Shown here in pieces: positions 4,263 through 41,786 of a DNA stretch of 64,000 bases. The DNA comes from Calditrichota bacterium (GTDB taxonomy: Bacteria; Zhuqueibacterota; Zhuqueibacteria; Zhuqueibacterales; Geothermadaptataceae). The notes under the pieces were generated by a model. It made no database searches. It was not told the origin of the DNA and saw only the letters and a list, made by a program, of their open reading frames with translations. Both the position numbers and the translations under genes were made by a program. Where the stretch lies: contig QQUE01000003.1 of assembly GCA_008501765.1 (NCBI GenBank), forward strand, positions 1-64,000. Reading direction: 5' to 3'. Within the stretch, counting starts at the first letter, position 1. Each line of letters opens with the position of its first letter.

Positions 4263-4308
4263 TCAAAATTAAATTGACTAATAAAATAAAAACATGGAGA
4301 TACACGCA

Positions 4309-23228: not shown

Positions 23229-26200
23229 TTATCGAAGGGTCGAGTCAGCCTGATTAAACAGCTTGCTTTTATTAGCCTGGTTTTCTGGGCCATAATTTTC
23301 CGGACCGTGACAGTGCCCGATATTGCAATTTCCTCCGCCACCACCACCGCCAACGAAATTGAGATCGCCATTGCCATTGGTTAGCCGGCCATCGCGGACC
23401 ATGAAATTATTGTCGGAGCCGTGTATGTTGTGGCATGTCGGGCAGGTTGGACGGGAGTCACTCGTTGGACCGTTCAACGGAATACTCCAATCCGATTGCC
23501 AGGATTCATCACCACCGGATTTATTGCGCAAATGCTCCCGGTGCAGATTTCCTTCATTGTCGCCAAAGTTGGAATTATTGAGAACATTATTCAGGGTATG
23601 GCAACTCTGCCAGCACATATTGTACTGGGCTCCATTTATGTTATTCCCATTGCTGAACGAATTTGGCACACTCATTTGCCGGTCACTTCTGAGCCGGTAT
23701 CCGGCAGTGTAATTATTACTGCCTGAGCTGTAGGTTCTTGCTTGGCCGTCGAGGTGGGCACCGGACAAATTATGGCAATTTGAGCAGGTGGCATTGTTAT
23801 TCACTCCGTGGCCTTTGGCGTAATAACCCCAGGAGTTATTGTCCCCGGCAACAGGTGGCGCACTGATTCCATCAATCACAGAATTTCCCTGATCGTGGCA
23901 GCCGACACACCATTTTTCTTTGCCCGATTGCAGAGAGCTTCCATTGTAAACACTGCTGCTCCAATTATCTTTGGCCCCGACTGATCCACCCATAGAATTT
24001 AAACCGTTAAAAGCGCCACCCGCACTGTGGCAGGCGTCACAAACATTGGTATTTGCCAAATTATTGCCATCAGAAAATGTTGGATAATTGTTGGTGTCGT
24101 GGCAATCGGAACAGTCGAGAAACGGGCCTCGTAAATCGTCGGAATCATTTTCCGTATGGGTGGAATGACTAATTGTTGAGCCGTAAAATGGCAGCCCGTT
24201 ATGCCCGTCATCGTGGCCATGACATCCGTTGCAATTTTTGCCAGATTTACCGTGTTCAAAATTACTATCATGTGAGTGGCAGTCCAGACAACTTTTATTT
24301 GGATGATGATTTCTGTTGTAAATTGTACTTCCGCGAAATTTATCCGTTGTGGTGTGGCACACCTGACAAATTCCATCGTACGCAGTTTCATTGACATAAC
24401 TGTTCCAGGTACCCAACGTCGATAAAGTTGTACTCACTGTCGTTGTTGGTGTGCCGTAACTGCCATCGGAAGTTTGGGTCACGGATTGATGAACCATCGC
24501 CACGTTGTTATCCCCGTGCGGATCGTGGCAATCCCAGCAAAATTCTCCACCCGAGGTATTGGAGTGATCGGAGCCGTAGTGAGCAGTTCCAACTTTTACA
24601 GTGCCATTTTTCGAGCTCATGGAGCCGGATCCATCGGGATCGTACCCCGTTGATCCTGATTTGTGGCAGATAAAACAGACTCCGTTTTGCCCATCGGAAC
24701 CTGAAGTATTGGCAAGGCGGAATGGATTTGTATTCACATTGTGATTTACATTGTCATCATGGCAATAAAGACAGGCATTTCCTGAATTTGCGGCAGCCGT
24801 TAAATCTGCGGCAGGATTGCCGGATTGTGCATAATTGCCGCTGCTTGCCGACCGGCCATGACCGCTGGAATTCCACTCAGTTGTACTGATTTTTGAAAGC
24901 GTGCTGTTTCCGAAAATAAAATCATTGTTGTCCGATGCTCCGGAATGGCATAAAATACATTCGCCATCATCCGGAATGAGCCCGTTTGCATGGGGGTGAC
25001 AGCTGATACAATTTTCGCCGTCGTAGTGGGTTTGGCCACCGGGTGCGGTGCCATCACTTTGATGGTGGTTCGTCTGCGTATGACAGGTATTGCAGAGATA
25101 ATTTTCTGTCGTCATATCTCCCGGCTGGTCAGGCAAATCGTAAGCAAAACTGTACGATCCGGTCGTTGCTTCAAAAATAACAGAATTTCCGCGAATAGTT
25201 GTTCGTATAAAATCCAGGTTTTCATTGCTGCGGATATTTATCTGGGTGCTCATCGGATTGTGGCAATCGACGCACAGCAGGTCCAGAAGTTGGCCGGTTA
25301 CCGGATCGGTATAATGCTCACTGAAATGAGTTTTTAAAGTGCTCGGTGTGTGGCATACTTCACAATCTGAATTTGGAATTACGGCATCGACGACATAAGT
25401 AGTCGGATCACTGTGGCAGACGATGCAGGCGAAAGTATCGTGGGGTGGAGGAACATCTGCCGAAGCTTCAAACGAATCGGCATGCGAGTGACAAATGAGG
25501 CAGTTTTCACCGTTGTGGTGCGCTTGGCCGCCCGGTGCGGTGCCATCATTTTGGTGATGATTCGTGTTCGTATGGCAGACTTCACAAATTCCATCAAAAG
25601 TTGTGTTGCCATCAGCAAATGAATTTGTGCCGGATTCACTGGTGAAAACGACACTTTTCGTACCACTGTTCGGTGTTGAAAGGGACTCTCTAACGAGCAA
25701 AATGTTGGAACGGGCCGGATCGTGACTGTTGTGGCATTGGGTACAACCTTGCCCCATGTGGTTGGTGTAAGTATGGCAATCCTGGCAGAGCTGTTCGTCA
25801 TTGGCTTCTCGCAATAAAAAGCCATCGCCTAATCCATTATTGGCGTTACCGGAAGTTGCATAGTGGGGTGAATGGCAGGTCGTACATTCTATTTTGTTCT
25901 GCTCATACAAAGGTAGATTCGGGTTTTGTATGCTGGGGAAAAATCGGGAGTCTGAGCCCGGGTAAGCGATTCCAACAGGATGGCTTCCACGGCTATTGGT
26001 ATTATCGCGATAACTCCCAACATTGCGGATGCTGTGGCAATCTTTGCACAAAGCGTTGCCTGCATTTGTATCGCGTAAAAATGGCGGAAAATTCTGGTTG
26101 TGTTGATTGTGGCACGTTGAACATACAATTTTTCCATCTAAAACACGCAGTGACATTTCAGCATTTGTTGGCAACTCAGCCCCAAATTCCCAATTTGTCG

Positions 26201-26639
26201 CTGGCACTTCCCACGCGTGGGAGGTACCACTCGTACCTGGAATTGCTTTATCCGCTTCAGAAAAAGGCATGCCGCTGGCCACGCCAACCGGATTGTGACA
26301 ACTCATGCACAGATTCGCGTTGCCGTTGACTTTTGTCAGCTGCATGCCCTCGTTATTGTGTAACATATGGCAGGACATACAATCGATGTCGTTGCCCCAG
26401 TGGGGCGCGTCCATTGCCTGAATTGCTGGATTTTTCCCATTTTCAAGGATCGATGGCAGCTGATTTTTATCCTGACCTTTTAGATTTATTACAGAAAACA
26501 ATGTTAGGAGAATAATTAAAGATAATCGGGAAAAATCATTTCTGGTGGAATTATTTTTCAGTTGCGCTGATTTATTCGCATCAGTTTTAACTCGCTCACT
26601 AGAAAGCATCAGAAACCTTTGTCTATTTTTATAATTCAC
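23229..26639 (-). CDS. Secreted multiheme cytochrome c, 26 CxxCH plus two variant heme sites
   Basis: A 1136-residue exported protein (signal segment LSLIILLTLFSVINLKG around residues 39-55). I count 26 canonical CxxCH motifs plus CWQSCH and CNIGHCH near the C-terminus, i.e. up to 28 covalent hemes. Some stretches are repeated (TNHHQNDGTAPGGQAHH and TNHHQSDGTAPGGQTHY), and paired-CxxCH spacing is common, so it grew by internal duplication. There is no lipobox or membrane anchor. The end is Gly-rich. Proteins of this kind work at or beyond the outer membrane in electron transfer. It is followed in the same direction by no other gene; a propeller-protein gene lies 55 bp upstream, probably in one transcript. 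Confidence 0.88.
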   Translation of the reverse strand: MNYKNRQRFLMLSSERVKTDANKSAQLKNNSTRNDFSRLSLIILLTLFSVINLKGQDKNQLPSILENGKNPAIQAMDAPHWGNDIDCMSCHMLHNNEGMQLTKVNGNANLCMSCHNPVGVASGMPFSEADKAIPGTSGTSHAWEVPATNWEFGAELPTNAEMSLRVLDGKIVCSTCHNQHNQNFPPFLRDTNAGNALCKDCHSIRNVGSYRDNTNSRGSHPVGIAYPGSDSRFFPSIQNPNLPLYEQNKIECTTCHSPHYATSGNANNGLGDGFLLREANDEQLCQDCHTYTNHMGQGCTQCHNSHDPARSNILLVRESLSTPNSGTKSVVFTSESGTNSFADGNTTFDGICEVCHTNTNHHQNDGTAPGGQAHHNGENCLICHSHADSFEASADVPPPHDTFACIVCHSDPTTYVVDAVIPNSDCEVCHTPSTLKTHFSEHYTDPVTGQLLDLLCVDCHNPMSTQINIRSNENLDFIRTTIRGNSVIFEATTGSYSFAYDLPDQPGDMTTENYLCNTCHTQTNHHQSDGTAPGGQTHYDGENCISCHPHANGLIPDDGECILCHSGASDNNDFIFGNSTLSKISTTEWNSSGHGRSASSGNYAQSGNPAADLTAAANSGNACLYCHDDNVNHNVNTNPFRLANTSGSDGQNGVCFICHKSGSTGYDPDGSGSMSSKNGTVKVGTAHYGSDHSNTSGGEFCWDCHDPHGDNNVAMVHQSVTQTSDGSYGTPTTTVSTTLSTLGTWNSYVNETAYDGICQVCHTTTDKFRGSTIYNRNHHPNKSCLDCHSHDSNFEHGKSGKNCNGCHGHDDGHNGLPFYGSTISHSTHTENDSDDLRGPFLDCSDCHDTNNYPTFSDGNNLANTNVCDACHSAGGAFNGLNSMGGSVGAKDNWSSSVYNGSSLQSGKEKWCVGCHDQGNSVIDGISAPPVAGDNNSWGYYAKGHGVNNNATCSNCHNLSGAHLDGQARTYSSGSNNYTAGYRLRSDRQMSVPNSFSNGNNINGAQYNMCWQSCHTLNNVLNNSNFGDNEGNLHREHLRNKSGGDESWQSDWSIPLNGPTSDSRPTCPTCHNIHGSDNNFMVRDGRLTNGNGDLNFVGGGGGGGNCNIGHCHGPENYGPENQANKSKLFNQADSTLR

Positions 26640-26694: not shown

Positions 26695-27939
26695 TTACTT
26701 CAATAAAATCATGCGTTTCATTGCACTAAAGTTATTCGCGGTAAACTTGTAGAAATAGATACCACTTGCTAATTGCTCACCGCGGTTATTCGAGCCATCC
26801 CAATAGGCAGCTTTTGCTTTGCTATCGTAGAGTCCCGCCGGCAGCACCCCCAATTCAATTGTGCGTACCAAACTTCCGACATCATTATAAATTCGTATTG
26901 TTATCGCACTGTTTTCATGGAGAATAAATGGAATCCATGTGCCTTTGTGAAATGGATTTGGGAAATTCTGCAGCAATGCTGTGCCGGGGGTGAAAGTGGT
27001 GATACTCTCCTCAGCCACCTGCGTCGCCGGGTCGCCGAGATCAAATACCTCAACGCGTCCGGAATTCATCGAAGTTACCCACAACCGGTTTCTGGAGTCG
27101 ACGGCCAAATCCATCGGCATTTTAAGTTGCCCGGGCTCGGAGCCGTAAGCGCCGATAGTGGTGATATATTCTCCATTTTGGCTCAGAATAGTTATATTTC
27201 CCTGAAAAGGATCGGCTGCTAAAATATGCCCAGAATGGTCTACTGCTATTCCCTGAATTCGGTGGAATTGACCGGGTTTATTGCCAAATTTCCCAAAACT
27301 TGTGAGGAAATTACCATTTAGGTCATAGGCGAAAATCAGATCGTTAATTTCTGCACTTGAAGCTAATCCGGCATGTTCAGCAATAAGCATTCGTTTGTTC
27401 AGGTGATCAAATGCTATGCACGTTGGAAAAACCATACGGTCGGAACCAAAACTTTGGATTAAATTACCGCTTTCGCTGAATATTTTTATTGCTTTATTTT
27501 TGCTGTCAACGAGGAAAAGCCTGGCATCGGGAGTAAAAACAGCATCCACCGGCAGGTTAGATAATCCAAATGGATTTGGGCCCGGTTTCATTAAAACACC
27601 GTTATCGCTAAAAACCTGCACGTACCCTTGGCTATCGCCGACTAAAAATTGTTTCTGATCCGAAACGACCATGGCTAATGGTTTAACCGGCAGCTTGATC
27701 TCGCCAATTGAAATACCGTCCAGGTTAAATTTGTGGATTTTTTGTGCTGAGTAATCAGCGACAAATATTACATCATCCGCTCCGATCGCAATTCGCAAAG
27801 GACTTACAAGCCCTTCTGAAATGGATAAAACATGCACAATTTCGGATGTGGAATTGAGTACGCTGGCGGGAGTCTTGCCAAAGCTGAATGTAGCCTGAAC
27901 ACTCAGGAAAACGGCTATGATATTTTTCAGTATTCTCAT
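26695..27939 (-). CDS. Secreted NHL-repeat beta-propeller with type IX-style C-terminal domain
   Basis: A 414-residue exported protein. After a signal peptide (IIAVFLSVQATFSFG) come about six NHL blades (FGKFGNKPGQFHRIQGIAVD is typical) and then, from ~residue 325, a FlgD-like/sorting domain: LLQNFPNPFHKGTWIPF, YNDVGSLVRTIE, WDGSNNRGEQLASGIYFYKF and a terminal KRMILLK. That domain is the secretion and attachment signal of type IX systems and their relatives in the FCB group. It precedes the 26-heme cytochrome in the same direction and is divergent from the heme-sensor kinase, so the pair may be an exported electron-transfer module. Confidence 0.85.
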   Translation of the reverse strand: MRILKNIIAVFLSVQATFSFGKTPASVLNSTSEIVHVLSISEGLVSPLRIAIGADDVIFVADYSAQKIHKFNLDGISIGEIKLPVKPLAMVVSDQKQFLVGDSQGYVQVFSDNGVLMKPGPNPFGLSNLPVDAVFTPDARLFLVDSKNKAIKIFSESGNLIQSFGSDRMVFPTCIAFDHLNKRMLIAEHAGLASSAEINDLIFAYDLNGNFLTSFGKFGNKPGQFHRIQGIAVDHSGHILAADPFQGNITILSQNGEYITTIGAYGSEPGQLKMPMDLAVDSRNRLWVTSMNSGRVEVFDLGDPATQVAEESITTFTPGTALLQNFPNPFHKGTWIPFILHENSAITIRIYNDVGSLVRTIELGVLPAGLYDSKAKAAYWDGSNNRGEQLASGIYFYKFTANNFSAMKRMILLK

Positions 27940-28374: not shown

Positions 28375-28520
28375 GATGGATGCCTTAAAAATTTGCGGTT
28401 GTTCTTTTCTCATTTTGCCTTCCCAATTTTGAAATTACTGTTTTTAAACTTCAATGTGAATTAATCGCTTTGTATTTATTTTACAGAAATCTATCTTCCT
28501 GCATATATTTGGTTGTTTTC

Positions 28521-28535
28521 AGGCATGTCTCTTGC
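28521..28535 (+). promoter_or_regulatory. Sigma-54 promoter of heme-sensor kinase gene
   Basis: AGGCATGTCTCTTGC has GG at 28522-28523 and GC at 28534-28535 separated by 10 bases, with a good CTTGCA -12 element. Start site near 28547, 22 nt before the ATG at 28569. An open frame continues upstream to 28470, but this promoter lies inside that extension, supporting the 28569 start. Confidence 0.72.
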
Positions 28536-28568
28536 ATTGAATTGGAAATCCAATTTACGAGAACACAC

Positions 28569-30044
28569 ATGATTTTTAAAAAGCTCCGCACCCGTGTTGT
28601 TGCACACATTATCTGGATAATTTCCATATCCACGGCTGTAACATATTATTTTGATTATAGGTTGCATACAAAAACAATCCATTCGCATATCGAAGACGAT
28701 GCCAAAGAAATCACTTCGATAATTGAAAGTAGTATTGCTTCGTTTATGGGGATTGAGAATCCGGGATTATTTAAAGAGGTTTTAAGCGAACTGGTAAAAT
28801 TACACCACATTCGCAGGGTTAGCCTCCTGGATACGACAGGGCGTGTCCTGTTATCCGCTCAACCGGACACTTTATTCAGCCGCACGCGAGTCAACAATGT
28901 CAATGAATTCGATTTTACCGAGGACGGCGTTTACATTTACTCGGAATTGAATCGTGAATTTGCTGAAATTATGTTGTTTAAGAGACTTGCCAATAATAAA
29001 AGCTGTCAGGAGTGCCACGACGCGCAGCATAAAATACTCGGGATATCGCTGGTAGAAACAAAATCAAATATTTCATTCAGAGAGCAAAAATCAAGTTTTA
29101 TAATTTTATTTGGTATCACTCTCGCAGCTATTATCTTGCTTTCAATGGCAACCCACGTTTTATTTGACAGGTCAGTGGACAAACCTATTCAAATATTAAA
29201 AACAGCAATGGATGAAATGAAGCAGGAAAATTTTTCATTTCGTATCAAACAGCCGGCAAAGGATGAGTTAGGTTCACTCGCAAAAGGTATGAATGAGATG
29301 GGTAAAAAATTGCAAGAGGCCAGAAAACAATTACTTGAATCCCACAAGAGCAAGCTTGTTCAGGCTGAGTCCATCGCAAAAGTTGGTGAATTGGCAGCCG
29401 GGATGGCCCATGAAATTAAAAATCCGATCTCGGGAATTGTGTTCGCTGCAAATTCTATTTTGCGGGAAACAAAGGATGATGATAATCGCAAAGAAATTTT
29501 TGAAGAGATAGTCCGGCAGGCTAACCGGGTTGAGCAAAATCTGGAGGCGCTTTTAACGATTGCCCGTGAAAGCCGCTTTGAACGGTTTCCGACAGATTTG
29601 AAGCCGATGATTGAGCGTATTTTGTTGTTTATTCAACAACAGCAAGGTACGAAAAGAATAAAAACGGTGAGCATTTTTGATGATCATCTACCAGAAATTC
29701 TGGTTGACAATAAACAAATTGAACAAGTACTGATGAATCTCGTTATCAATTCAATTCAGTCGATGAAAGACAAAGGGCAACTTACTGTAATTGTTCGATT
29801 TGTTGCTGAAAAACAGCGAATGAAAATACAAATTAGTGATACTGGGAAAGGAATCCCGGAATCGATCAAAGAAAAAATATTCGATCCTTTTTTCACTACC
29901 AAGGAAAAAGGCGTTGGATTGGGTTTGTTCCTCTGTAAAGAAATTATTAGCCGGCATAAAGGGCGGCTGTATTTTGAAAGTGAAAACGGAAAAGGTACCA
30001 CCTTCACTATTGAACTACCGGTCGGCTCAATCGATGAAATTTAA
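28569..30044 (+). CDS. Membrane histidine kinase with extracytoplasmic c-type heme motif
   Basis: A 491-residue kinase. Transmembrane helix 1 is at ~11-33 and helix 2 at ~175-198. The ~140-residue extracytoplasmic domain between them contains C146-x2-C149-H150 (CQECH), a covalent heme c attachment motif, followed by ILGISLVETK. Then a HAMP domain (~199-255), HisKA with H281 (AGMAHEIKNP), and HATPase_c with NLVINSIQ, DTGKGIP and GVGLGLFL. Heme-c-containing sensor domains are known in kinases and chemoreceptors of Geobacter and relatives; this one is expected to sense redox potential, NO or O2 (inference). It is paired with the NtrC-type regulator 168 bp downstream. Confidence 0.9.
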   Translation: MIFKKLRTRVVAHIIWIISISTAVTYYFDYRLHTKTIHSHIEDDAKEITSIIESSIASFMGIENPGLFKEVLSELVKLHHIRRVSLLDTTGRVLLSAQPDTLFSRTRVNNVNEFDFTEDGVYIYSELNREFAEIMLFKRLANNKSCQECHDAQHKILGISLVETKSNISFREQKSSFIILFGITLAAIILLSMATHVLFDRSVDKPIQILKTAMDEMKQENFSFRIKQPAKDELGSLAKGMNEMGKKLQEARKQLLESHKSKLVQAESIAKVGELAAGMAHEIKNPISGIVFAANSILRETKDDDNRKEIFEEIVRQANRVEQNLEALLTIARESRFERFPTDLKPMIERILLFIQQQQGTKRIKTVSIFDDHLPEILVDNKQIEQVLMNLVINSIQSMKDKGQLTVIVRFVAEKQRMKIQISDTGKGIPESIKEKIFDPFFTTKEKGVGLGLFLCKEIISRHKGRLYFESENGKGTTFTIELPVGSIDEI

Positions 30045-30212: not shown

Positions 30213-31583
30213 ATGGAGAAAAATAAAATTCTAATCATTGATGATGATAAATTGATAACATGGTCGCTATCGCGTGATCTCGCCAGCATCGGGTATGCAA
30301 TTGAAACGACGGCAGATGGAAAGAGTGGGATCAAAAAATTCTCCAATTATGCGCCAGACCTGGTGTTGCTCGATTTAAAACTTCCGGATATGAGCGGCCT
30401 GGATGTTCTCAAAGCACTTCGTGCTGAATCTGAAGAAACAATTATAATAATGATGACCGCCTATGCAACCGTACAGACAGCGGTAGAAGCGGTTAAATTG
30501 GGTGCGGCGGATTTCATCAAAAAACCCTTTACCTGTGAAGAATTAAAGATTATTATTGATAAGGCCATAGAAACACAAGAGTTAAGTAATAAAGTCGCCA
30601 TTATCAACAAAGAGTTGAAATCAAAATTTGGTATCAATCAAATAATTGGTGAATCACCGCAGATGCAGGAGGTTATCCAACTCATTGATAAAATAGCTAA
30701 AAGTGATGCCGAGACAATCCTGCTGACAGGGGAAAGTGGCACCGGCAAAGATTTGGTGGCAAAGGCGATCCACTACGAAAGCCCACGAATGAATTACCCT
30801 TTTATGGCTGTAAATTGCGGCGCCCTGCCTGACACATTGCTTGAAAGTGAGTTGTTCGGGCATGAACGCGGGGCATTTACTGACGCGAAGGATGTAAAGC
30901 GAGGCCTGTTTGAACTTGCAGATAAAGGTTCAATTTTGCTCGATGAAATTGGGGATGCGAGCCCATCATTTCAAATTAAGTTGCTTCGTTTTATCGAAGA
31001 AAAATTGTTCAAACGGGTCGGCGGGACGAAAGATATCGAAGTGAATGTACGAATAATCGCAGCTACAAATAAGGACCTGAAAAAACTTGTGAAAGAGGAG
31101 CAGTTTCGTGAGGAGTTGTTTTATCGGTTGAATGTCATTCCGATTGCTCTACCGCCATTGTGCAAGCGTGAAAAGGATATCGAACTGCTGGTGAAATTTT
31201 TTATCGAGCATTTTAATAAGAAATTTAAGAAGAAACTGCACGACATCTCTAACGAGGCGATGGTGAAACTCACGAATTACAGTTGGCCGGGCAATATTCG
31301 AGAATTGCGCAACGTCATTGAACGAATAATCATTCTGGAAACAGGGGATACTATTTCAGTTGATCATTTGCCATCCGAACTCACAAGTAATGATGATAAT
31401 TCCAGGTTAATCAGCGATTTTTATTTTTCATCCACTGATATGCCTCTCGACGAGATTGAGCGAGCCCTGATTTTGAAAGCACTTGCGAATACAAATGAAA
31501 ACCAATCCCATGCTGCAAAGCTTTTGAATATCTCCCGCCATGCTTTGCGCTATAAGATGAAAAAATATAATATTTTAAATTGA
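30213..31583 (+). CDS. NtrC-family sigma-54 response regulator
   Basis: A 456-residue three-domain activator: receiver with D11-D12, phospho-acceptor D54 (VLLDLKLPDM) and K104; AAA+ domain with Walker A GESGTGKD (173-180) and Walker B ILLDEIGDA; C-terminal Fis helix-turn-helix (NQSHAAKLLNISRHALRYKM). The sigma-54 contact loop reads GAFTDA (220-225) rather than GAFTGA. It lies directly after the heme-sensor kinase, so phosphotransfer between them is the simplest model. The 16-bp palindromic sites flanking the two genes are its likely targets, with the cytochrome operon downstream as output. Confidence 0.92.
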   Translation: MEKNKILIIDDDKLITWSLSRDLASIGYAIETTADGKSGIKKFSNYAPDLVLLDLKLPDMSGLDVLKALRAESEETIIIMMTAYATVQTAVEAVKLGAADFIKKPFTCEELKIIIDKAIETQELSNKVAIINKELKSKFGINQIIGESPQMQEVIQLIDKIAKSDAETILLTGESGTGKDLVAKAIHYESPRMNYPFMAVNCGALPDTLLESELFGHERGAFTDAKDVKRGLFELADKGSILLDEIGDASPSFQIKLLRFIEEKLFKRVGGTKDIEVNVRIIAATNKDLKKLVKEEQFREELFYRLNVIPIALPPLCKREKDIELLVKFFIEHFNKKFKKKLHDISNEAMVKLTNYSWPGNIRELRNVIERIIILETGDTISVDHLPSELTSNDDNSRLISDFYFSSTDMPLDEIERALILKALANTNENQSHAAKLLNISRHALRYKMKKYNILN

Positions 31584-31804: not shown

Positions 31805-31819
31805 TGGCATTACTGTTGC
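31805..31819 (+). promoter_or_regulatory. Sigma-54 promoter of the NHL-cytochrome operon
   Basis: TGGCATTACTGTTGC matches the -24/-12 consensus at TGGCA and TTGC with GG and GC 10 bases apart. A start near 31831 gives a ~150-nt leader before the ATG at 31984. The rest of this 400-bp gap is AT-rich and holds only the tandem activator sites. Confidence 0.78.
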
Positions 31820-31983
31820 GTTTAAAAAACAAATCTATATGTATCGTCAATTTTGTTGACGGACTTTATTCATTTTTAATAAATAAAATTTATGCGCAGT
31901 CAGTGAAATAATCTGATATATATTAGCAGGAGTTATATTTCAATTATAATTAATGCTAAATTCAAAAAGGAACAGGTCATCTA

Positions 31984-33123
31984 ATGATATCAGAGAGAAA
32001 TATCTTATTCGTATTGTTTATCATTGTGTCCATTTTGCTGCCAGGGTGTGGCGGCACATATAAAAACGATAATGCAAAAAAAGCTGAAGATTATGTCTGG
32101 CCGTTGCCACCGGAACAGCCTCGAATTCAATATGTTGGCAGCGTTCATTCAGAGATGGACGTTGGAATTAAAAAAAGTGGTTCACAGAAAATTTTTGAAC
32201 TTTTTTTTGGGCGTGCTGCACTGCGATATTTGCGCAAACCCCTAACCGTGCATGTGGATGATAAAGAACGCATGTATGTCGTTGATACCGGCGTGACTGG
32301 TGTTTGGGTGTTTGATTTTGATAACCATAAATTAGAGGCCCTGGGCGGACGTGGCCGGGGACATCTAAAAAATCCACTGGCTGTAACCAGCGATTCAAAA
32401 TGCAATATTTACGTTACTGATGCGGGTGGTGGACGCATCATGGTTTATGATTCAACATTTGCATTCGTGCGAGCATTTGGTGGTAAAAACATACTTAAGC
32501 GCCCAACAGGTATTGCTTTGAATGAAGCATTGAATCGCGCGTATGTGACGGATACATGGATGCATCAGATAAAAATTTTTAATACAAAAACCGGGGAAGT
32601 AATCAAGACAATTGGCCGCGATGAACCGGAGCCGGAAACAGAGAAAACTGAAGGTGTATTGGATGAAATCCAAAATCGTGGCAGTGACGAGGGGGAGTTG
32701 AGTTTTCCAACGTACATCACGATTGCCAAAAACGGAGATATTTACGTTGTTGATATGATGAACTTTCGAGTTCAAATATTCAATGGTGACGGTGAATTTC
32801 AAGGAGCCTTTGGTGAGGTTGGAAATTTGCCAGGAAATTTATACAGGCCAAAAGGAATTGGATTAGACAGCGATGGACATGTCTATGTTGCTGACGCGTC
32901 ATTTAGCAACATTCAGATATTTCAAAACGATGGGACTCTTTTGCTCAATTTTGGGACTTTTGGCGCTGGACTGGCAGATTTGCGGTTACCAGCAGGGGTT
33001 TTTGTCAGCAAGAAAGATAAAATATATGTCGTTGACCAATATAACCATCGAGTTCAAATTTACCAATATTTGAAGCCAGTGACCATCGAAGAAGAAACAA
33101 TCACAACTAAAAGAGGAGGCTAA
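31984..33123 (+). CDS. NHL-repeat beta-propeller lipoprotein
   Basis: A 379-residue lipoprotein with lipobox LLPGC (residue ~22). The mature N-terminus has WPLPPEQPRIQYV, then six NHL-type blades such as YVVDMMNFRVQIFN and YVVDQYNHRVQIY. NHL propeller proteins are recurrent neighbours of extracellular multiheme cytochromes, where they may act as chaperone or docking factors (role unproven). It is the first gene after the sigma-54 promoter and ends 4 bp before the first five-heme cytochrome. A decayed second copy of its 3' part lies between the two cytochromes. Confidence 0.88.
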   Translation: MISERNILFVLFIIVSILLPGCGGTYKNDNAKKAEDYVWPLPPEQPRIQYVGSVHSEMDVGIKKSGSQKIFELFFGRAALRYLRKPLTVHVDDKERMYVVDTGVTGVWVFDFDNHKLEALGGRGRGHLKNPLAVTSDSKCNIYVTDAGGGRIMVYDSTFAFVRAFGGKNILKRPTGIALNEALNRAYVTDTWMHQIKIFNTKTGEVIKTIGRDEPEPETEKTEGVLDEIQNRGSDEGELSFPTYITIAKNGDIYVVDMMNFRVQIFNGDGEFQGAFGEVGNLPGNLYRPKGIGLDSDGHVYVADASFSNIQIFQNDGTLLLNFGTFGAGLADLRLPAGVFVSKKDKIYVVDQYNHRVQIYQYLKPVTIEEETITTKRGG

Positions 33124-33127
33124 TGGA

Positions 33128-33865
33128 GTGAAAAAAACGGGTAGTTTTCTTTTTGCTTCTTTTCTGGTAATGTGCATTTTTTGTGGAAATGGCTTATTTG
33201 CACAAGGCGGTGGTAGTGGCCCCGGTCCTGGACCTGGGAACACCATCTTTGGTAATAAGGTTGCTGATACACCGCATAATTTACGCAAAGCCAGAAATAT
33301 GGGAGTGGAAGACTTGGGGGAAGTTTGTGTTTATTGTCATACACCACACAATAATAATCAGCAAATTGAAGCGCCATTATGGAACCGGGAAACACCTGTG
33401 GGACCGTATGACATGTATGATAGTCCTTCCATTGATATGATCATTGCAGGAAGTGCCACCGGCGTCTCATTAGCCTGTCTCTCTTGTCATGATAATACAA
33501 TTGGGCTTGACCAGGTCATTAATATTCCTGTATCCCAGTTTGGTCAGGTTACTTTGCAAGGTGGGACTATTTCGGGATGCGCATCTTTTTGCCACGAAAT
33601 TCATCACAAAACAACGTTCGAAGGAACCGTCATGGGGACGGATTTGACTGACGATCATCCGATTTCTTTAACTTACGATCCCAGTCAAGATCCGAATTTT
33701 CATCCGGCTGCCAACGGGCAGGTTGGTGCATTGCGTTTATACGGCACCAACAAGGACCAGGTAGAATGCGCGTCCTGCCATAATCCACATGATAACTCGA
33801 ACCGGCCGTTTTTGCGGATGTCGAATGAAAACAGTGCGATGTGCTTAACCTGTCATGATATTTAG
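33128..33865 (+). CDS. Exported five-heme cytochrome c, paralogue A
   Basis: A 245-residue protein from a GTG start preceded by GGAGG; signal peptide ends near GLFAQ. Four CxxCH motifs (CVYCH, CLSCH, CASCH, CLTCH) plus one CxxxCH (CASFCH) make five heme sites. Conserved NKVADTPHNLRKA and GPYDMYDSP segments are shared with the next cytochrome. There is no anchor, so it is periplasmic or secreted. Size, one longer-loop heme motif and neighbours (propeller, parvulin, outer-membrane barrel) resemble loci for filament-forming cytochromes, a hypothesis that needs structure. A Gly-Pro-rich insert (GGGSGPGPGPG) follows the signal peptide and is absent from paralogue B. Confidence 0.87.
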   Translation: MKKTGSFLFASFLVMCIFCGNGLFAQGGGSGPGPGPGNTIFGNKVADTPHNLRKARNMGVEDLGEVCVYCHTPHNNNQQIEAPLWNRETPVGPYDMYDSPSIDMIIAGSATGVSLACLSCHDNTIGLDQVINIPVSQFGQVTLQGGTISGCASFCHEIHHKTTFEGTVMGTDLTDDHPISLTYDPSQDPNFHPAANGQVGALRLYGTNKDQVECASCHNPHDNSNRPFLRMSNENSAMCLTCHDI

Positions 33866-33910
33866 TTTTTTAGCCACGGAAGGTAAGTTGTATTATTTTT
33901 AGGAAGTAAG

Positions 33911-34150
33911 CAACCTGTCAGGCACCCTTTTATCAACCAAAAGGAATTGGAATAAAAAGTGACGACATGTTATGTAGCTGATGCTTCTTTTACGAATTAC
34001 ATACTTCGTTTGATGATGTGCATAATTTAATTTGGCACTTTTTGCTCTGGCTTGATTGGTTTACAGCTTTCTACGGAATTAAAGTATTAATTTTTAAGCC
34101 GTGTGATTGTTGTGAATGACCTCAATCACAGGGTATATCAAATAACAGGA
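33911..34150 (+). pseudogene. Decayed fragment of an NHL-repeat lipoprotein gene
   Basis: The spacer between the two cytochromes reads as broken pieces of the 3' part of the 31984 gene. In successive frames I find YQPKGIGIKSD from 33931 (intact gene: YRPKGIGLDSD), YVADASFTNYI from 33971 (intact: YVADASFSNIQI) and VIVVNDLNHRVYQ from 34103 (intact: IYVVDQYNHRVQ). The fragments are in the same order and almost the same spacing as in the intact gene, interrupted by stops and a frameshift. DNA alignment agrees, for example CCAAAAGGAATTGGA in both. This shows an ancestral propeller-cytochrome pair was duplicated and the second propeller lost. Confidence 0.8.
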
Positions 34151-34209
34151 TTGGTAACTTTATATGTTTTACAAATCTAATCACCAACTTATTAAAGGAG
34201 GTAGCTAAC

Positions 34210-34917
34210 ATGAAGAAATCTTTTATGGTCATGCTGGTTCTCGCTCTGGTTATGTGTTTCACCGTATCAGGCGATCTTTTTGCCCAGTTTGGCAATAAAG
34301 TAGCGGATACGCCGCATAACTTGCGTGAAGCAACAGACGCGGGCATGCCCGTTGAAGACCTGGGAGAAATTTGTGTTTATTGCCATACACCACACAATAA
34401 CAATCAAAATATCGAGGCTCCGCTCTGGAATCGTGAGTCACCGGCTGGACCGTACGATATGTATGACAGCCCAACCATCGATATGACGGTTGCGGGAAAT
34501 GCTGCTGGTGTATCCCTCGCTTGCTTGTCTTGCCATGATAACACAATTGGTCTCGACCAGGTTATCAATATTCCAACATCGCAACTTGGTGTAGTAACGC
34601 CAGCTGGTGCGAAAATTTCGAGCTGCGTCGGAACTTGTCACTCTGGTGTCGGTGCCGGTGGATTAAATTTCGACGGAACCAATATCGGAACGGACTTGAC
34701 GAACGATCACCCGATTTCAATTACTTATGATCCAGGTCAAGATCCGAATTTTCATCCTGCCAGCAATGGTAAAGTGGGTGTTTTAACATTATATGGCCCA
34801 AACAAGGATCAAGTAGAATGCGCGTCCTGCCATAACCCACATGATAACTCAAATCGTCCATTCTTGCGCATGACGAATGATAATAGCGCAATGTGTTTAA
34901 CATGTCATGATATTTAA
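34210..34917 (+). CDS. Exported five-heme cytochrome c, paralogue B
   Basis: A 235-residue protein with a strong AAAGGAGG ribosome site and a signal peptide ending near DLFAQ. It has four CxxCH (CVYCH, CLSCH, CASCH, CLTCH) and one CxxxCH (CVGTCH) in the same order and spacing as paralogue A, with most of the mature chain nearly identical (for example CVYCHTPHNNNQ, GPYDMYDSP, NRPFLRM). The longest difference surrounds the CxxxCH site (GVGAGGLNFDGTN versus EIHHKTTFEGTV). The strong ribosome site suggests high expression, as expected of a structural or bulk electron carrier. Confidence 0.87.
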   Translation: MKKSFMVMLVLALVMCFTVSGDLFAQFGNKVADTPHNLREATDAGMPVEDLGEICVYCHTPHNNNQNIEAPLWNRESPAGPYDMYDSPTIDMTVAGNAAGVSLACLSCHDNTIGLDQVINIPTSQLGVVTPAGAKISSCVGTCHSGVGAGGLNFDGTNIGTDLTNDHPISITYDPGQDPNFHPASNGKVGVLTLYGPNKDQVECASCHNPHDNSNRPFLRMTNDNSAMCLTCHDI

Positions 34918-35032: not shown

Positions 35033-36025
35033 ATGATTAAGAAAATCAACATAGGATTTAGTTTTACCCTAATTTTAATATTGCTGCCAATTTTTTGTCA
35101 GGCTGCTTTTTTTGGCGAAAATGACAAAACGGTGGCTTATGTAAATGATGCAGAGATAAAAGCATCGACGCTTGCAATGGAAATTAACAAACAGCTGCCT
35201 CTGCAGTCGTACCACTCGCGAGTCTCACCTGAAAAAATCGACAAGATTAGTTCGCAAGTTCTCGAATCGTTGATTGACGATGAATTACTTTATCAATTTG
35301 CACGGAAATTGAAGGTTGAGATTAAATCAGAAGAGGTTGACCAAAACCTGAAGGATATGCAAAAAGATTATGCTTCAGAAAAAGCATTTTGGCAGAAGAT
35401 AAAGAAGTCAAAATCGAGCAAGAAAAAACTAAAAAAACAAATAGAGCGAATTTTGGCCATTCAGAAGGTCAAACAGCACGAAATTTTCGACAAAATTTCT
35501 GTCACTAAAACCGAAGTTGAAAATTATTACAATGAAAATAGAGATAAATTTGTCAAACCGCCGCAATTCAATTTGCAGCATATTTTAATATCTGTAAATC
35601 CCGGGGCCATGAACGTGGGATGGCAGGCAGGTCTGGACAAAACATTGAACTTGCGTGCTGCAATTGACAACGGGTTAGAGTTTTCAAAAGCAGCGCTGGA
35701 TTTTTCCGCTGATTCATCCAGCTTTGAAAAAGGGGGCGATATCGGCTGGTTTCATTTAGGGCAATTATTACCTGAGTTGGAAGCGGTTATGCAAACTTTG
35801 GAATTGAATGAATTAAGCCAGCCCATTCAAACGATTTATGGCTTTCATCTGATTAAACTGCTGGGAAAAAAACCGAAAATTCAGCTCCAATTTTCAGAGA
35901 TAGATCAGGAAAAATTAGAGAAAAAACTTATCGAGAAGCACGGTGAAATAAAAACAAAGGAATTGCTAACTTCTCTTAGAAAAGAAGCACACATTCGCAT
36001 CGTAGATTATCAACATTCGAAATAG
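35033..36025 (+). CDS. Parvulin-type peptidyl-prolyl isomerase (SurA/PpiC-like)
   Basis: A 330-residue exported foldase. A signal peptide (LILILLPIFCQA) is followed by a SurA-type N-terminal helical region containing a lysine-rich stretch (KKSKSSKKKLKK) and a parvulin domain from ~180 with FNLQHILIS, GGDIGWFHLGQLLPELE and the terminal GFHLIKLL strand. Such proteins assist folding of outer-membrane and secreted proteins in the periplasm. Its place between the cytochromes and an outer-membrane barrel suggests it serves them; isomerase genes are a recurring companion of outer-surface cytochromes. Confidence 0.88.
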   Translation: MIKKINIGFSFTLILILLPIFCQAAFFGENDKTVAYVNDAEIKASTLAMEINKQLPLQSYHSRVSPEKIDKISSQVLESLIDDELLYQFARKLKVEIKSEEVDQNLKDMQKDYASEKAFWQKIKKSKSSKKKLKKQIERILAIQKVKQHEIFDKISVTKTEVENYYNENRDKFVKPPQFNLQHILISVNPGAMNVGWQAGLDKTLNLRAAIDNGLEFSKAALDFSADSSSFEKGGDIGWFHLGQLLPELEAVMQTLELNELSQPIQTIYGFHLIKLLGKKPKIQLQFSEIDQEKLEKKLIEKHGEIKTKELLTSLRKEAHIRIVDYQHSK

Positions 36026-36270: not shown

Positions 36271-38232
36271 ATGCATTTTTTCAAATTAAAAATGTGCAAA
36301 TTAAGCTTTATTCTGTTGATTTTTCAACTCAGCGCCGAGGTGTGTGCTCAGCAAGCGACACCTTTCCGTATTGTGGGTTGGCACGGTTCGGTTTTATTGC
36401 ACTCGATGCATGAAGATCGTACGTCCGCAGTTGAAAGCGAGGAACAAAATTACAAGCAATCATTCCTATTGAGAAACCGGGGATTTATTATTAATCCGCT
36501 TTTATGGGCTTTTCAATGGGACGGCAGATTGGGTTTTATGCAGGAAAATTTTGTTGACAGCCGAATTGAACAATCCACACGTGGCCGCCTGATGGGGCAA
36601 TCTTTTTCCAGTTCTTTTTTTAAAGATACTGCGCACCCATTCCGGATATCATTGAATCACAATACGAACATAATCAAACTCGCCTATGCCGGCCGCAATG
36701 AATACGATATTCGTACGTATCTGGCCACATTTGATCTGCTCAACAAAGCCTTGGTTTCCCGGTTTTCGGCTGAATACCGGGATATTCAGGATGAGTGGAG
36801 TCGCGGTGGGTATTCCTCAAAGCGAGATCAGGTCAGGAAAAATTTTACGTATTCGGGGACGCATAATGGAGAAAAATACGACACCAGGATTCGGGCGCAT
36901 ATTTTCAACAGTGATGACCGCCTCAGTTCGGATCGAAGTTATTCGACATACACGCTGAAATACCAGACGAACCGGACTTTCGGGGACAGCTTGAAAAATA
37001 TGTGGAGCAATTCCTTTGATGCACTGCATCGCACCGGAAGCAGACTTTATACCAGCGGCCGCCTCTCCCAAAACCTGGATGCACTGTTGCTAAAAAAAGT
37101 AAAATCATCGTTTCAATATTCTCTCAATTCGTACAAAGTACTTGGCAACACCTCCGTTGAAAATTCGGCTTCCGGTAGAGTAAGATACCCGCTCACACAC
37201 GATATAGGGATCGGGGCCGGACTTGGTGGCGCACACGGAACAGCGAACACGGGTTCGTTTAATTCTTCAAATTATAGCGGAAATATTAGTTATAATAAAA
37301 ATATGCCATTGGGTGGCATGTTCCAGGCGACTTATTATCAAACGTTCGCCCATACGTCACGGGACATTAATGTAACCGAGCGTGCCGTTGTTTTTGAAGA
37401 ACATTTTTTTCTGGGCTCGGTTCCGGTCTATCTCAATGAACGACACATCATTATTTCGAGCATTGTAGTCATTGACAAAGAGACGAAAATGGTTTTTGAA
37501 GAAGGCGAAAACAAAGATTATTTTATTCGAGATTTTGGTGATCGTGTGGAAATTCACCGCAATTTATTGGGACGAATTGAAGAGAGTTCGGGAATCCTGG
37601 TGGACTACCGTTTCGAAACGCTGCCAAGTCTGAAATACAATACGACCACGCAGCTTGTTAGCACTGGAATATCCTATAAAAAGCTTAATTTATATTTTCG
37701 AAAAAGTGTCCACAACGTCGATTTATTAGCGGGTGAACTTGACGGTCGAGCCACACTGGGGAATATGAAAGTAATGGCAACCGGATTGCAATCTGGTGTG
37801 CGCGGAAAAAAGGCTGGTATTTCTCTGTCCGGGGAATATAAGACTCAGGAATCGGTCGAGTTTTCATACGATGCGACTAATTTCAGGAACACATTTTTCA
37901 TAATCCCAACAGAAGCAATCACCTGGACTGCCTCAGCCGCCTATTTGCATATGGATCACAGGCTGAAAGAATATCAAATTGATGATTTATCGATCAGCTC
38001 CGAGTTGAAGTGGCGGCCGACGATGGATTTATACATTACGAGTTATTTAACCTTAAGAAACAGGGATGAATCTGAACGAAATGAAGAAATAAATTTTGAA
38101 TACGGTTTTTCGCTTCAGCGGTTGTGGCGCATTTTTCGGTTGAAAATTGAGTTCGATAAAAGAAAATGGGAATTTGATCCACAAAGAATTAATGAAAAAC
38201 GTACGACCATCGAACTTGAGCGCGTTTTTTAA
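36271..38232 (+). CDS. Outer-membrane beta-barrel protein of the electron-transfer locus
   Basis: A 653-residue exported protein with a signal peptide ending AEVCAQQ and no heme motif. The mature chain alternates amphipathic strands and polar loops (for example RLSQNLDALLLKKVKSSFQY, SISSELKWRPTMDLYITSYL) and ends with a C-terminal Phe (TIELERVF), as BAM-assembled barrels do. A central segment (~400-460, VPVYLNERHIIISSIVVID...DYFIRD) resembles the beta-sandwich domain of large outer-membrane proteins of delta-proteobacteria. It could be the porin through which cytochromes pass electrons, but no homologue is recognised with certainty. Confidence 0.72.
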   Translation: MHFFKLKMCKLSFILLIFQLSAEVCAQQATPFRIVGWHGSVLLHSMHEDRTSAVESEEQNYKQSFLLRNRGFIINPLLWAFQWDGRLGFMQENFVDSRIEQSTRGRLMGQSFSSSFFKDTAHPFRISLNHNTNIIKLAYAGRNEYDIRTYLATFDLLNKALVSRFSAEYRDIQDEWSRGGYSSKRDQVRKNFTYSGTHNGEKYDTRIRAHIFNSDDRLSSDRSYSTYTLKYQTNRTFGDSLKNMWSNSFDALHRTGSRLYTSGRLSQNLDALLLKKVKSSFQYSLNSYKVLGNTSVENSASGRVRYPLTHDIGIGAGLGGAHGTANTGSFNSSNYSGNISYNKNMPLGGMFQATYYQTFAHTSRDINVTERAVVFEEHFFLGSVPVYLNERHIIISSIVVIDKETKMVFEEGENKDYFIRDFGDRVEIHRNLLGRIEESSGILVDYRFETLPSLKYNTTTQLVSTGISYKKLNLYFRKSVHNVDLLAGELDGRATLGNMKVMATGLQSGVRGKKAGISLSGEYKTQESVEFSYDATNFRNTFFIIPTEAITWTASAAYLHMDHRLKEYQIDDLSISSELKWRPTMDLYITSYLTLRNRDESERNEEINFEYGFSLQRLWRIFRLKIEFDKRKWEFDPQRINEKRTTIELERVF

Positions 38233-38377
38233 AGTGCTCTCCACCAACACCTTTTGCCATTTTTCAAGAGTTGATTTAGAATTATTTTTCTGTAGCATCG
38301 ATCGTGTTTTTTCGACAAATTGTTAAAAAATTTCATCCAGGACTACTTTTTGGGGCTTGCATTTGCAAGATAGGGCT

Positions 38378-38860
38378 ATGCAATTAAAAGATTATAATTT
38401 CAACACCATCATCGCTTTTGTTCTGTTTTTGTTGATATTAATTTCCTCCGCCTGCGGAACTCGGGAAACCGCACCTGTCGAGCCGGTCGCAGTTGAAGAA
38501 ATTCATGCTAAAGGATGGAGTCAGGAATCGTCATCGCAATTTCATGGCGATTCTTTTGATGCCGATAGTGTGAATATCAACGAATGCCAACTTTGCCACG
38601 GTCCTGAGTTTATTAAACCCTGCCTCCCGTGTCACACTGTGGAAGACAGGTTGCCGTCGTGCCTGGAATGCCATATTGATAAAACACCGGGGCTTGGGAA
38701 CGATCCCAAAACCCATATTGCCAATTTTTTAAAAAATGTGAACGGAGAGTGGCACTCCGGTATCGCATCTATTTGCTATGAATGCCATACAAATTCTCAA
38801 AATAATGATATAGGATTCTGTTTATATTGCCATGGAGCAAAGTGGAATGAAACACATTAA
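38378..38860 (+). CDS. Five-heme cytochrome c lipoprotein
   Basis: A 160-residue lipoprotein: signal helix FVLFLLILISSAC with the lipobox cysteine in the motif SSAC. Five CxxCH motifs (CQLCH, CLPCH, CLECH, CYECH, CLYCH) sit in the C-terminal two thirds. Start taken at the ATG 38378 (TAGGG upstream), not at the TTG 21 bases earlier. It overlaps the start of the 33-heme gene, which begins with the same lipoprotein style and a similar HGxxxxADS lead-in (FHGDSFDADS, FHGKVVAADS), so the two probably arose from one ancestor and act together. Confidence 0.85.
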   Translation: MQLKDYNFNTIIAFVLFLLILISSACGTRETAPVEPVAVEEIHAKGWSQESSSQFHGDSFDADSVNINECQLCHGPEFIKPCLPCHTVEDRLPSCLECHIDKTPGLGNDPKTHIANFLKNVNGEWHSGIASICYECHTNSQNNDIGFCLYCHGAKWNETH

Positions 38861-41786
38861 TCTCGTTTTTGTTTTTTTGATCTCTGTGTTGCTTGTTTTT
38901 TCATCCTGCAGTAAACCTCGAGTCTCTCCAACGCAACCTCAAGCCGAAGTCAATGTTCACCCTCAGGATTGGTTAACAAAATCATCCGGGGATTTTCACG
39001 GAAAAGTCGTCGCTGCTGATAGTTTTAAAATTGAAGAATGCCAAAAATGTCACGGTAAAAATTATGATGGTGGGCTTGTAGAAGTATCTTGTATCAAGTG
39101 CCATGATTATTATCCTCACCTTCCTGGGTGGTTAGGAACCACGGAAAAATCTCATAATGTGTATTTGAAAAATCTGGATTATGAAACGCACGTTTGTCAA
39201 GCATGCCACGGGGAGCAATTAAAAGGTGGTACATCTCAGGTATCCTGTAATAAATGCCACGAAGAATATCCCCATGATCCGCTCTGGCTTACGCCCGGAG
39301 AAAATTTTCACGGTGATTTTGTAAAAGAAGATGAAAGCAATCTCGAATCCTGCCGGAAATGCCATGGCAGTGATTTAACAGGTGGATCATCAGAAGTATC
39401 TTGTTTTAAATGCCATGAAAATTATCCACACCCTGAAGATTGGGCTGCCACAGGCGAAAACTCGCACGGTTTTTACCTGAAAGGCCAGGAGTATAACTTG
39501 CAGATGTGCCAAAGCTGCCATGGCGATAATTTTGAAGGTGGATCGTCAGAGGTATCTTGTTACAAATGCCACACGAATTATCCTCACACCGAAGCGTGGC
39601 TTGGTGGCGCTGAGAACTCCCACGGGCCCCAATTAAAAGAACTTGATTACGCAACAGATTCCTGCGAAAACTGCCACGGCGGCGACTTGCTTGGCGGCAC
39701 TTCGGAGATTTCCTGTACGAAATGCCACAACTCCTATCCCCACACGCAAGACTGGGTGGGCACAGGTGAAGGAAACCACGGTTTCATTTTGCGCGAACAG
39801 GAATACGATTTGGCCGCATGCAATCTCTGTCATGGCGACGATTTTGCTGGCGGCACCTCAGAAGTTTCTTGTTATAAATGTCACGCTGAGTACCCGCACG
39901 GCACCGAGTGGAAGGGTGAAGGTGAAAAATCCCACGGTGAATTCCTGCGGAATATTGATAATAATTACGATTCATGTCGTGCCTGCCATGGTTCCGATTT
40001 AGCGGGAGGCACATCGAAAGTCTCGTGTTATCAGTGCCACACAACTTTTCCTCACTGGCAGGGCTGGATTGGCCAGGGGCAAAATTCCCATAATTTCTAT
40101 TTGCGGAGCAATGGCTATGATATGGAATCCTGCAAAAATTGCCACGGAGAAAATCTTGACGGTGGATCATCCGAAGTGTCGTGTACAAAATGCCATGCTG
40201 ATTTTCCCCACCCGCAGGGCTGGGAATTAAGTTCGGGAGACAATTCACATACGACATTTTTAATCGCCAATGAATTTGACTACACTTCTTGTAAAAAGTG
40301 CCACGGGCAGGATTTTCAGGGAGGCGCAACTGGGATTTCCTGCAACAAATGCCATGAAGGATTTCCACATTTGCCAGAATGGTCTGGCACGGGCACAGAG
40401 GGGCATGGAAGCTTTTTGAAAATCAAAGATTACGATATGGATTCCTGTAGAGGCTGTCACGGCGAAGATCTCACTGGTGGGCCTTCAGGCATTTCCTGTA
40501 CAAAATGCCATACAACTTTTCCCCACCCGCAAGGTTGGGAACTGGACTCAGGCGTGAATTCGCACACAACTTTCCTGCAGGCGAATAATTTCGATTATTC
40601 TTCCTGTAAAAACTGCCACGGTGAGGATTTCACCGGCGGCAGCAGCGGAATATCCTGTAATAAATGCCACGATGGGTTCCCACATTTGGATTCCTGGGTT
40701 GCTGCTGGTCCGGATGGGCATAATACATTTCTCAAGAACAAAGATTATGACATGGAATCCTGCAAAAGTTGCCACGGCGCCGATCTGAAAGGTGGAACTT
40801 CCGGCATTTCTTGTTCTCAATGCCACGGCGATTTTCCCCATCCGGACGGCTGGGAATTAAAATCGGATCCGAACTCCCACACCTTTTTCCTTATAAACAA
40901 CGGCTTTGATTATACTTCATGCCAGAAGTGCCACGGCCAGGATTTGCTTGGTGGTACCTCATATATCTCATGCAAGCAATGCCACACAAATTTCCCGCAC
41001 CCACAGGATTGGATTGGTTCGGGGGAGGATTCTCACAATTTTTATATCAAGGCAAACAACTTTAATTTCACTGGTTGTACTGGCTGCCACGGCGTGAATT
41101 ATGATGAATTTAAGCGTGATAATTCGTGTCTCACCTGCCACACCCACGCTGATGGACCGGAGGCTTGCAATACCTGCCACGGCAATTTCAACGCGGATGC
41201 CGAAAATTTTGTAAATTTCGCGCCCCCGAAAGGACTCGACGATGAAGAATCTACGCTCGAAATTGCCGTCGGTGCACACCAGAAACACCTGGAAAATAGT
41301 TTCTCGGTGGAAGTTAATTGCCAGGGCTGTCATAACGTGCCCGCCACGATGGATGCTGCGGGCCACATTGATTCCGGCGATCGTGCCGAAGTGACAATCA
41401 CTCACGAACTCGCGAAAAAAGTTACTTTTGGTGGAATGCGTGTTCCCGATCCTGTCTATTCACAAAGCACTACTTCGTGCCAGAATAGCTATTGCCACGG
41501 AAACTGGGAAATAGCCAAATCGCAATCACAATCAAGCATGACCTGGATTTACATTGATTCGACGATGGTCGGAAATAACGCGGCAGTCAACTGGGTTGAT
41601 CCACAATCTGCAGCGTGCGGTTCGTGCCACGATCTGCCGCCAAAAGGACACTGGCCGTACAAAATCACAGAATGTTATATTTGCCACGGAAATGTAGTAG
41701 ATACAGAAGGCCAAATAATTGATAATTCGAAGCATATCAATGGTAAAACCAACGTTACCTTCGACAATGAAGTTGATATGTTTTAA
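38847..41786 (+). CDS. Giant 33-heme lipoprotein of tandem di-heme modules
   Basis: A 979-residue lipoprotein (VFSSCSKP lipobox). I count 32 CxxCH plus one CxxxxCH (CQNSYCH): thirteen di-heme modules of ~52 residues, a fourteenth degenerate one, and four further CxxCH plus the long-loop site in a tail domain resembling the Geobacter CxxxxCH...CxxCH family (CHGNW...CGSCHDLPPKGHWP). Each module is CxxCHGxxxxGG(T/S)SxxSCxKCHxxxPH. Two CxxCH and regularly placed histidines per module would stack hemes along the repeat, making a long conductive rod anchored by lipid. The ATG at 38847 has GGAG ~9 nt upstream; an ATG at 38832 lies in the same frame. Confidence 0.9.
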   Translation: MKHINLVFVFLISVLLVFSSCSKPRVSPTQPQAEVNVHPQDWLTKSSGDFHGKVVAADSFKIEECQKCHGKNYDGGLVEVSCIKCHDYYPHLPGWLGTTEKSHNVYLKNLDYETHVCQACHGEQLKGGTSQVSCNKCHEEYPHDPLWLTPGENFHGDFVKEDESNLESCRKCHGSDLTGGSSEVSCFKCHENYPHPEDWAATGENSHGFYLKGQEYNLQMCQSCHGDNFEGGSSEVSCYKCHTNYPHTEAWLGGAENSHGPQLKELDYATDSCENCHGGDLLGGTSEISCTKCHNSYPHTQDWVGTGEGNHGFILREQEYDLAACNLCHGDDFAGGTSEVSCYKCHAEYPHGTEWKGEGEKSHGEFLRNIDNNYDSCRACHGSDLAGGTSKVSCYQCHTTFPHWQGWIGQGQNSHNFYLRSNGYDMESCKNCHGENLDGGSSEVSCTKCHADFPHPQGWELSSGDNSHTTFLIANEFDYTSCKKCHGQDFQGGATGISCNKCHEGFPHLPEWSGTGTEGHGSFLKIKDYDMDSCRGCHGEDLTGGPSGISCTKCHTTFPHPQGWELDSGVNSHTTFLQANNFDYSSCKNCHGEDFTGGSSGISCNKCHDGFPHLDSWVAAGPDGHNTFLKNKDYDMESCKSCHGADLKGGTSGISCSQCHGDFPHPDGWELKSDPNSHTFFLINNGFDYTSCQKCHGQDLLGGTSYISCKQCHTNFPHPQDWIGSGEDSHNFYIKANNFNFTGCTGCHGVNYDEFKRDNSCLTCHTHADGPEACNTCHGNFNADAENFVNFAPPKGLDDEESTLEIAVGAHQKHLENSFSVEVNCQGCHNVPATMDAAGHIDSGDRAEVTITHELAKKVTFGGMRVPDPVYSQSTTSCQNSYCHGNWEIAKSQSQSSMTWIYIDSTMVGNNAAVNWVDPQSAACGSCHDLPPKGHWPYKITECYICHGNVVDTEGQIIDNSKHINGKTNVTFDNEVDMF
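39042..41104. repeat. Internal tandem array of ~156-bp di-heme modules
   Basis: Fourteen protein-level units of 51-55 residues, recognisable by CHG, GG and PH spacing. DNA identity between units has mostly drifted, but the pattern of CysHis codons is periodic. Pairs of modules alternate in the last third (units 8/10/12 have HPQGWEL-type ends, 9/11 have HLPEW/HLDSW ends), suggesting that a two-module block was also duplicated. Confidence 0.8.

Follow-up and report, generated by a model that had tools for sequence, protein, structure and literature searches.

Adjacent five-heme cytochromes of a KSB1-group bacterium are related to the filament cytochrome OmcE

We analyzed a 64,000-nucleotide stretch of DNA from an uncultured KSB1-group bacterium (the window), and in particular two genes on its forward strand that encode small multiheme cytochromes, A and B. 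The genes and sites around them are as follows.

23229 to 26639, reverse strand: divergent gene for a giant multiheme cytochrome with 26 CxxCH motifs and 2 variant motifs
26695 to 27939, reverse strand: divergent gene for an NHL propeller with a T9SS-type C-terminal sorting domain; also a companion in relatives
28470 to 30044, forward strand: sensor histidine kinase with one CxxCH motif (CQECH) in its sensor region
30213 to 31583, forward strand: NtrC-type sigma-54 response regulator with the variant motif GAFTDA
31805 to 31820, forward strand: sigma-54-type -24/-12 promoter-like site, TGGCATTACTGTTGCG, before the NHL gene
31984 to 33123, forward strand: six-bladed NHL propeller lipoprotein with the lipobox LLPGC (Pfam NHL, 6e-30), immediately upstream of A
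33128 to 33865, forward strand: protein A, five-heme OmcE-like cytochrome, GTG start, 245 amino acids
34210 to 34917, forward strand: protein B, five-heme OmcE-like cytochrome, 235 amino acids
34986 to 35013, forward strand: terminator-like hairpin with a 12-bp stem and a T-rich tail, between B and the isomerase gene
35033 to 36025, forward strand: parvulin/SurA-type peptidyl-prolyl isomerase (Rotamase, 6e-20; SurA_N_3, 4e-17)
36271 to 38232, forward strand: putative outer-membrane beta-barrel, 653 amino acids, with a C-terminal Phe
38357 to 38860, forward strand: small five-heme lipoprotein, unrelated to A and B
38832 to 41786, forward strand: large multiheme lipoprotein with 32 CxxCH motifs and 1 CxxxxCH motif

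Protein A has the heme motifs CVYCH, CLSCH, CASFCH, CASCH and CLTCH, in that order, and protein B has CVYCH, CLSCH, CVGTCH, CASCH and CLTCH. In other words, the order in both is CxxCH, CxxCH, CxxxCH, CxxCH, CxxCH. Each protein begins with a signal-peptide-like segment that lacks a lipobox. Proteins of this KSB1 type are found in 10 of the 82 genomes of the phylum, from three families, and this conservation, along with the presence of five heme motifs in just 235 amino acids, implies that the motifs are not due to chance. A previous reading of the sequence alone had placed both genes at exactly these positions, had counted five hemes in each, and had described the neighbors as a propeller lipoprotein, a parvulin and an outer-membrane barrel. 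We agree with this description, with the barrel as a putative one: it has no match in Pfam or among PDB sequences, and its homologues lie at the same place in relatives.

Most of this arrangement is shared. In KSB1 relatives with enough flanking sequence, the order of genes is the one-heme sensor kinase, the sigma-54 response regulator, the NHL lipoprotein, the five-heme cytochrome, the parvulin, a multiheme lipoprotein and the barrel, and there is usually a divergent T9SS-tagged NHL protein and a giant cytochrome as well. The order in the window differs, in that the multiheme lipoproteins (with 5 and 33 hemes) come after the barrel. The larger of these, which has a homologue in a genus-mate, is a probable cell-surface partner of the barrel. 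Overall, the locus is a conserved module.

The regulatory genes and the promoter-like site are conserved too. The sensor kinase, which adjoins the cluster in the KSB1 relatives as well, is likely a heme-c redox sensor. The sigma-54 regulators of all of the relatives have GAFTDA where GAFTGA would be expected. A sigma-54-type -24/-12 site, TGGCAnnnnnnTTGC, precedes the NHL gene in all 7 of the 7 KSB1 loci that we tested, and the spacers have diverged; at this stringency, about 3.6 such sites are expected per 64 kb per strand. (In the relatives, the sites are at position 6627 of L049, 238 of L051, 7780 of L053, 7782 of L054, 7725 of L055 and 7743 of L056.)

To classify A and B, we compared protein B to all of the sequences in PDB (phmmer, E ≤ 10). 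There were just two matches: 9YUQ (E = 8e-26) and OmcE of Geobacter sulfurreducens (7TFS, E = 4e-25). Residues 28-233 of B align with residues 23-230 of 7TFS, which is the mature length, and a profile of eleven relatives matches OmcE at 3e-31 and 9YUQ at 4e-31. The entry 9YUQ, a "putative multiheme cytochrome c" with 16 chains of one sequence, is homologous to A and B along its length and has the same ligand set, but it has four hemes and no extra site. The sequence-only reading had likened A and B to both OmcS and OmcE. The likeness to OmcE holds up in sequence and in fold (see below), but OmcS matches the family profile only marginally, at E = 0.13 and over one short stretch. With that match, and with five hemes instead of six, we do not place A and B among the OmcS filaments. 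Pfam and NCBIfam give just generic labels for A and B (doubled-CxxCH, c7 and c3). We also considered the pentaheme sPHC/ExtKL family of cable bacteria, which has been compared with AvECN. It likewise has five hemes and is a proposed nanowire former (PMC11976967), but it is a separate family from A and B: no ExtKL- or AvECN-type structure was among the results when we searched with the window protein by sequence or by fold.

The predicted fold of B also resembles OmcE. We used AlphaFold2, without templates and with 127 related modules from the relatives' loci, to model mature B as a monomer without heme. The model had a mean pLDDT of 86.5 and a pTM of 0.86. (A shallower run with 44 full-length sequences had a pLDDT of 55 and gave no fold match.) When the model was compared by Foldseek to 350,542 PDB chains, the sole significant match was 7TFS (E = 2.9e-12, probability 1.00), so the fold comparison that had been proposed along with the sequence-only reading, as run on this heme-free monomer, points to OmcE. 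The TM scores were 0.66 and 0.68, and the RMSD was 5.8 Å over 224 alignment columns, so the local packing may differ from that of OmcE.

OmcE and the two window proteins share four CxxCH motifs and four distal histidines. The eight ligand histidines of OmcE are invariant in an alignment of 34 sequences that includes 7TFS and 9YUQ, and they are also invariant across 44 sequences. In B, they correspond to H36, H59, H62, H109, H167, H208, H211 and H233; H59, H109, H208 and H233 are proximal, and H36, H62, H167 and H211 are the candidate distal ligands. In OmcE, one heme is completed by a histidine from the next subunit (PMC12954529, PMC12307469, PMC9473688). The aligned stretch of OmcE contains nine histidines. 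Since the only one that is not conserved is the ninth (in VHND), the inter-subunit ligand is most likely one of the eight that are kept. By this process of elimination, A and B most likely retain the interface histidine of OmcE.

In their homology, their fold, their small size and their secretion, A and B are like OmcE. They differ in having an extra heme site between hemes 2 and 3, in being encoded by two adjoining paralogues in the KSB1 host, and in being clustered with genes for NHL, parvulin, barrel and multiheme lipoproteins. Since OmcE has four hemes and A and B have five, strict membership in the tetraheme OmcE group fails on the heme count. Judging from the alignments, A and B are a five-heme variant of the OmcE type and not OmcE itself.

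Given the homology, the fold, the conserved ligands and the conserved cluster, we think it quite likely that A and B polymerize into extracellular cytochrome filaments of the OmcE type, with each subunit a five-heme variant. This favors the original suggestion that they are nanowire subunits, and the KSB1-group bacterium probably builds a modified microbial nanowire. Another explanation is that A and B are discrete carriers with the OmcE fold, either extracellular or periplasmic, which do not polymerize and which shuttle electrons to a conduit of barrel and multiheme lipoproteins. Both proteins are small and have no membrane anchor, Pfam recognizes just the generic domains, and a fold and a set of ligands do not prove polymerization. 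Also, some 12-heme proteins have a member of the family fused at their N-terminus (discussed below), and for these a homopolymer is less obvious. However, the invariant ligand set matches that of a filament in which the neighboring subunit must supply a histidine to the interface heme, and the only close relatives in PDB are OmcE and 9YUQ, with its 16 chain copies. We consider discrete carriers to be unlikely.

Known clusters of extracellular cytochromes offer analogies for the rest of the locus. The sequence-only reading had named NHL and isomerase genes as companions in such loci. This is documented for the Uet (undecaheme electron transfer) cluster of Tenderiales and Gallionella, which includes a peptidyl-prolyl isomerase (UetB) and NHL proteins (UetHI) (PMC10734462), and for a cytochrome operon of SEEP-SRB, which has NHL and isomerase companions (PMC12246660); the same companions recur in the KSB1 loci. 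We compared the window to Uet by the published list of components, not by sequence. In both, a small extracellular cytochrome (UetA in Uet) is clustered with an isomerase, a barrel porin (UetC) and NHL proteins (PMC10734462). But the window cluster has no undecaheme UetJ and no triheme UetDEG, so we do not file it as Uet; its small cytochrome has five hemes instead of four, and it has large multiheme lipoproteins instead. The OetABI conduit of syntrophic sulfate reducers is similar in that a barrel and multiheme cytochromes adjoin putative filament cytochromes, but those are OmcS-like, OmcX or Apc2a (six-heme) (PMC10553843). By analogy, then, the locus resembles Uet and porin-cytochrome clusters.

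Some relatives encode 12-heme proteins (11 CxxCH and 1 CxxxCH) that begin with an OmcE-like module of 200 residues, and whose genes adjoin an NHL gene and a barrel. Examples are at L041 10119-11828, L042 51-1757, L043 10049-11764, L045 4237-5919, L070 13747 and L097 8968, and there are others. These proteins look like UetJ, so UetJ may contain an OmcE-type unit or cap one.

What distinguishes A and B from OmcE is the fifth heme motif, and this difference was missed in the sequence-only reading, even though all five hemes were seen. The extra motif (C139-x3-C143-H144 in B) is found after heme 2 and before the DHP histidine, in a stretch that has no cysteine in OmcE, 9YUQ and the other four-heme members. 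A heme motif is inserted at this place in 45 of the 127 modules. C139, C143 and H144 are invariant across the KSB1 group; in relatives from the Krumholzibacteriia and Gemmatimonadales (L057 and L058), this site has the ordinary motif CAGCH. Both points speak for a real heme. In relatives from the Nitrospirota and Betaproteobacteria, the site is CxxCH. The unusual spacing of C-x3-CH could instead indicate a disulfide or a metal site, so that the subunit would be a plain tetraheme OmcE, and the alignment of relatives reveals no conserved distal histidine for a fifth heme in the KSB1 group. But the invariance of both cysteines and the histidine, the standard motif at this site in all four of the other groups just mentioned, and the presence in the genome of a Ccm-type maturation system (proteins of the Cytochrom_C_asm family, with no ResB) make a site without heme very improbable.

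The sixth ligand of the fifth heme may vary across the family. Most proteins of the non-KSB1 type have a histidine shortly upstream, which is a candidate sixth ligand; proteins of the KSB1, Krumholzibacteriia and Gemmatimonadales type lack it. We considered H182 of B (the FHP histidine) as the distal ligand and rejected it because it is not conserved in the relatives. A loop before heme 1, which contains Met46 in B, has a methionine in 42 of 44 five-heme modules and in just 9 of 82 four-heme modules, and the motif M-x(2-8)-D[YLMF][GN] is found in 40 of the 44 and in none of the 82. The five-heme trait changed 5 times on the tree, with 3 of the changes on supported branches; with so few changes, independent-pair tests cannot reach significance for the association with methionine. 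Met46 is a possible ligand of the fifth heme. Separately, an OmcE-like protein at L045 10925-11560 has its fifth heme elsewhere, between the DHP histidine and heme 3, and is apparently an independent gain.

If A and B do form filaments, then the four hemes that they share with OmcE would make a continuous axial chain through the filament, and at each junction between subunits, one heme would be completed by a histidine of the neighbor. With heme attached at C-x3-CH, the fifth heme would sit beside the chain as a side branch, with a distal ligand that is not a conserved histidine and might be Met46. The filament would exchange electrons with extracellular partners. The barrel and the multiheme lipoproteins may join the wire to the cell and the periplasm, the propeller and the parvulin may help with export, folding or anchoring, and the heme-containing kinase and the sigma-54 regulator may switch the cluster on.

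Why would the host have two subunits? The sequence-only reading had described A and B as nearly identical. They are clear paralogues, but they are 69% identical over the full open reading frames and 78.5% identical over 205 mature codons, with dN of 0.15 and dS of about 2.7 (saturated). "Nearly identical" is therefore too strong, and these values indicate an old, constrained duplication. The genome of a genus-mate (G001) encodes one A-type protein, one B-type protein and a third copy on a separate contig, so the duplication is older than the split from that genus-mate. In short, the pair appears from its codons to be an ancient duplication that is kept by purifying selection. We found no further OmcE-like genes in the whole host genome, except for weak matches within the giant cytochrome.

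A and B might form a mixed filament or might differ in role, with one as the main polymer and the other as a cap, tip or base adaptor. This would be a refinement of the filament explanation and not an alternative to it. The duplication predates the split from G001, which keeps both types plus the third copy; selection strongly constrains both copies; and a 14-residue Gly/Pro-rich insert after the signal peptide and CHxIH after the fifth heme are found in A but not in B. The 344-nucleotide gap between A and B (33866-34209) and the terminator-like hairpin after B would allow the two to be expressed unequally. The gap folds better than shuffled sequences do (z = -2.4) and contains a block, GGCACTTTTTGCTCTGG, that is conserved in G001. 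The hairpin has the longest stem of the terminator-like sites in the region, whose number equals the shuffle expectation. On the other hand, a single copy suffices in the other KSB1 families, and we regard a mixed filament or a difference in role as a tentative idea that has somewhat less than an even chance of being correct. We rejected the idea that GGCACTTTTTGC, a conserved block in the gap, is a sigma-54 promoter, because its GG-GC spacing is 8 instead of 10.

The nearest relatives are KSB1 metagenome-assembled genomes, several of which have marine or hydrothermal-style sample names. The KSB1 phylum is not known to have a cultured electroactive model. Five-heme OmcE-like proteins are also present in Nitrospirota, Betaproteobacteria (Gallionella, Sulfuritalea and Polaromonas), Gemmatimonadota and Krumholzibacteriota. 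Because the insertion is the same in these groups, the whole subfamily could be recognized by a simple motif. OmcE homologues have been reported to be widespread (PMC12307469), and OmcE-type wires are already known; what seems to be new here is the five-heme branch. In the part of the literature that we covered, we found no description of a five-heme OmcE-like protein.

Among OmcE-type nanowires, the five-heme proteins could make up a branch that is separate and widespread, with one heme per subunit off the chain and lacking a conserved distal histidine (in the KSB1 type, His/Met or an open site). This "tapped" nanowire is speculative, and we would sooner doubt it than rely on it. If it is correct, then the otherwise insulated OmcE wire gains a regularly spaced side heme along its whole length, either of higher potential or accessible to substrates. 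Open questions about cytochrome wires include why there are several kinds and how electrons exit from an insulated wire to a substrate (PMC12954529, PMC12307469). A five-heme variant that keeps the axial chain would allow a comparison of wires that differ mainly by the side heme. It would also place OmcE-type wires, with a recognizable operon, in KSB1 bacteria.

Elsewhere in the window, two adjacent and nearly identical genes for small lipoproteins (4294-4986 and 5116-5793) are followed by a diverged third; the pair is a recent tandem duplication.
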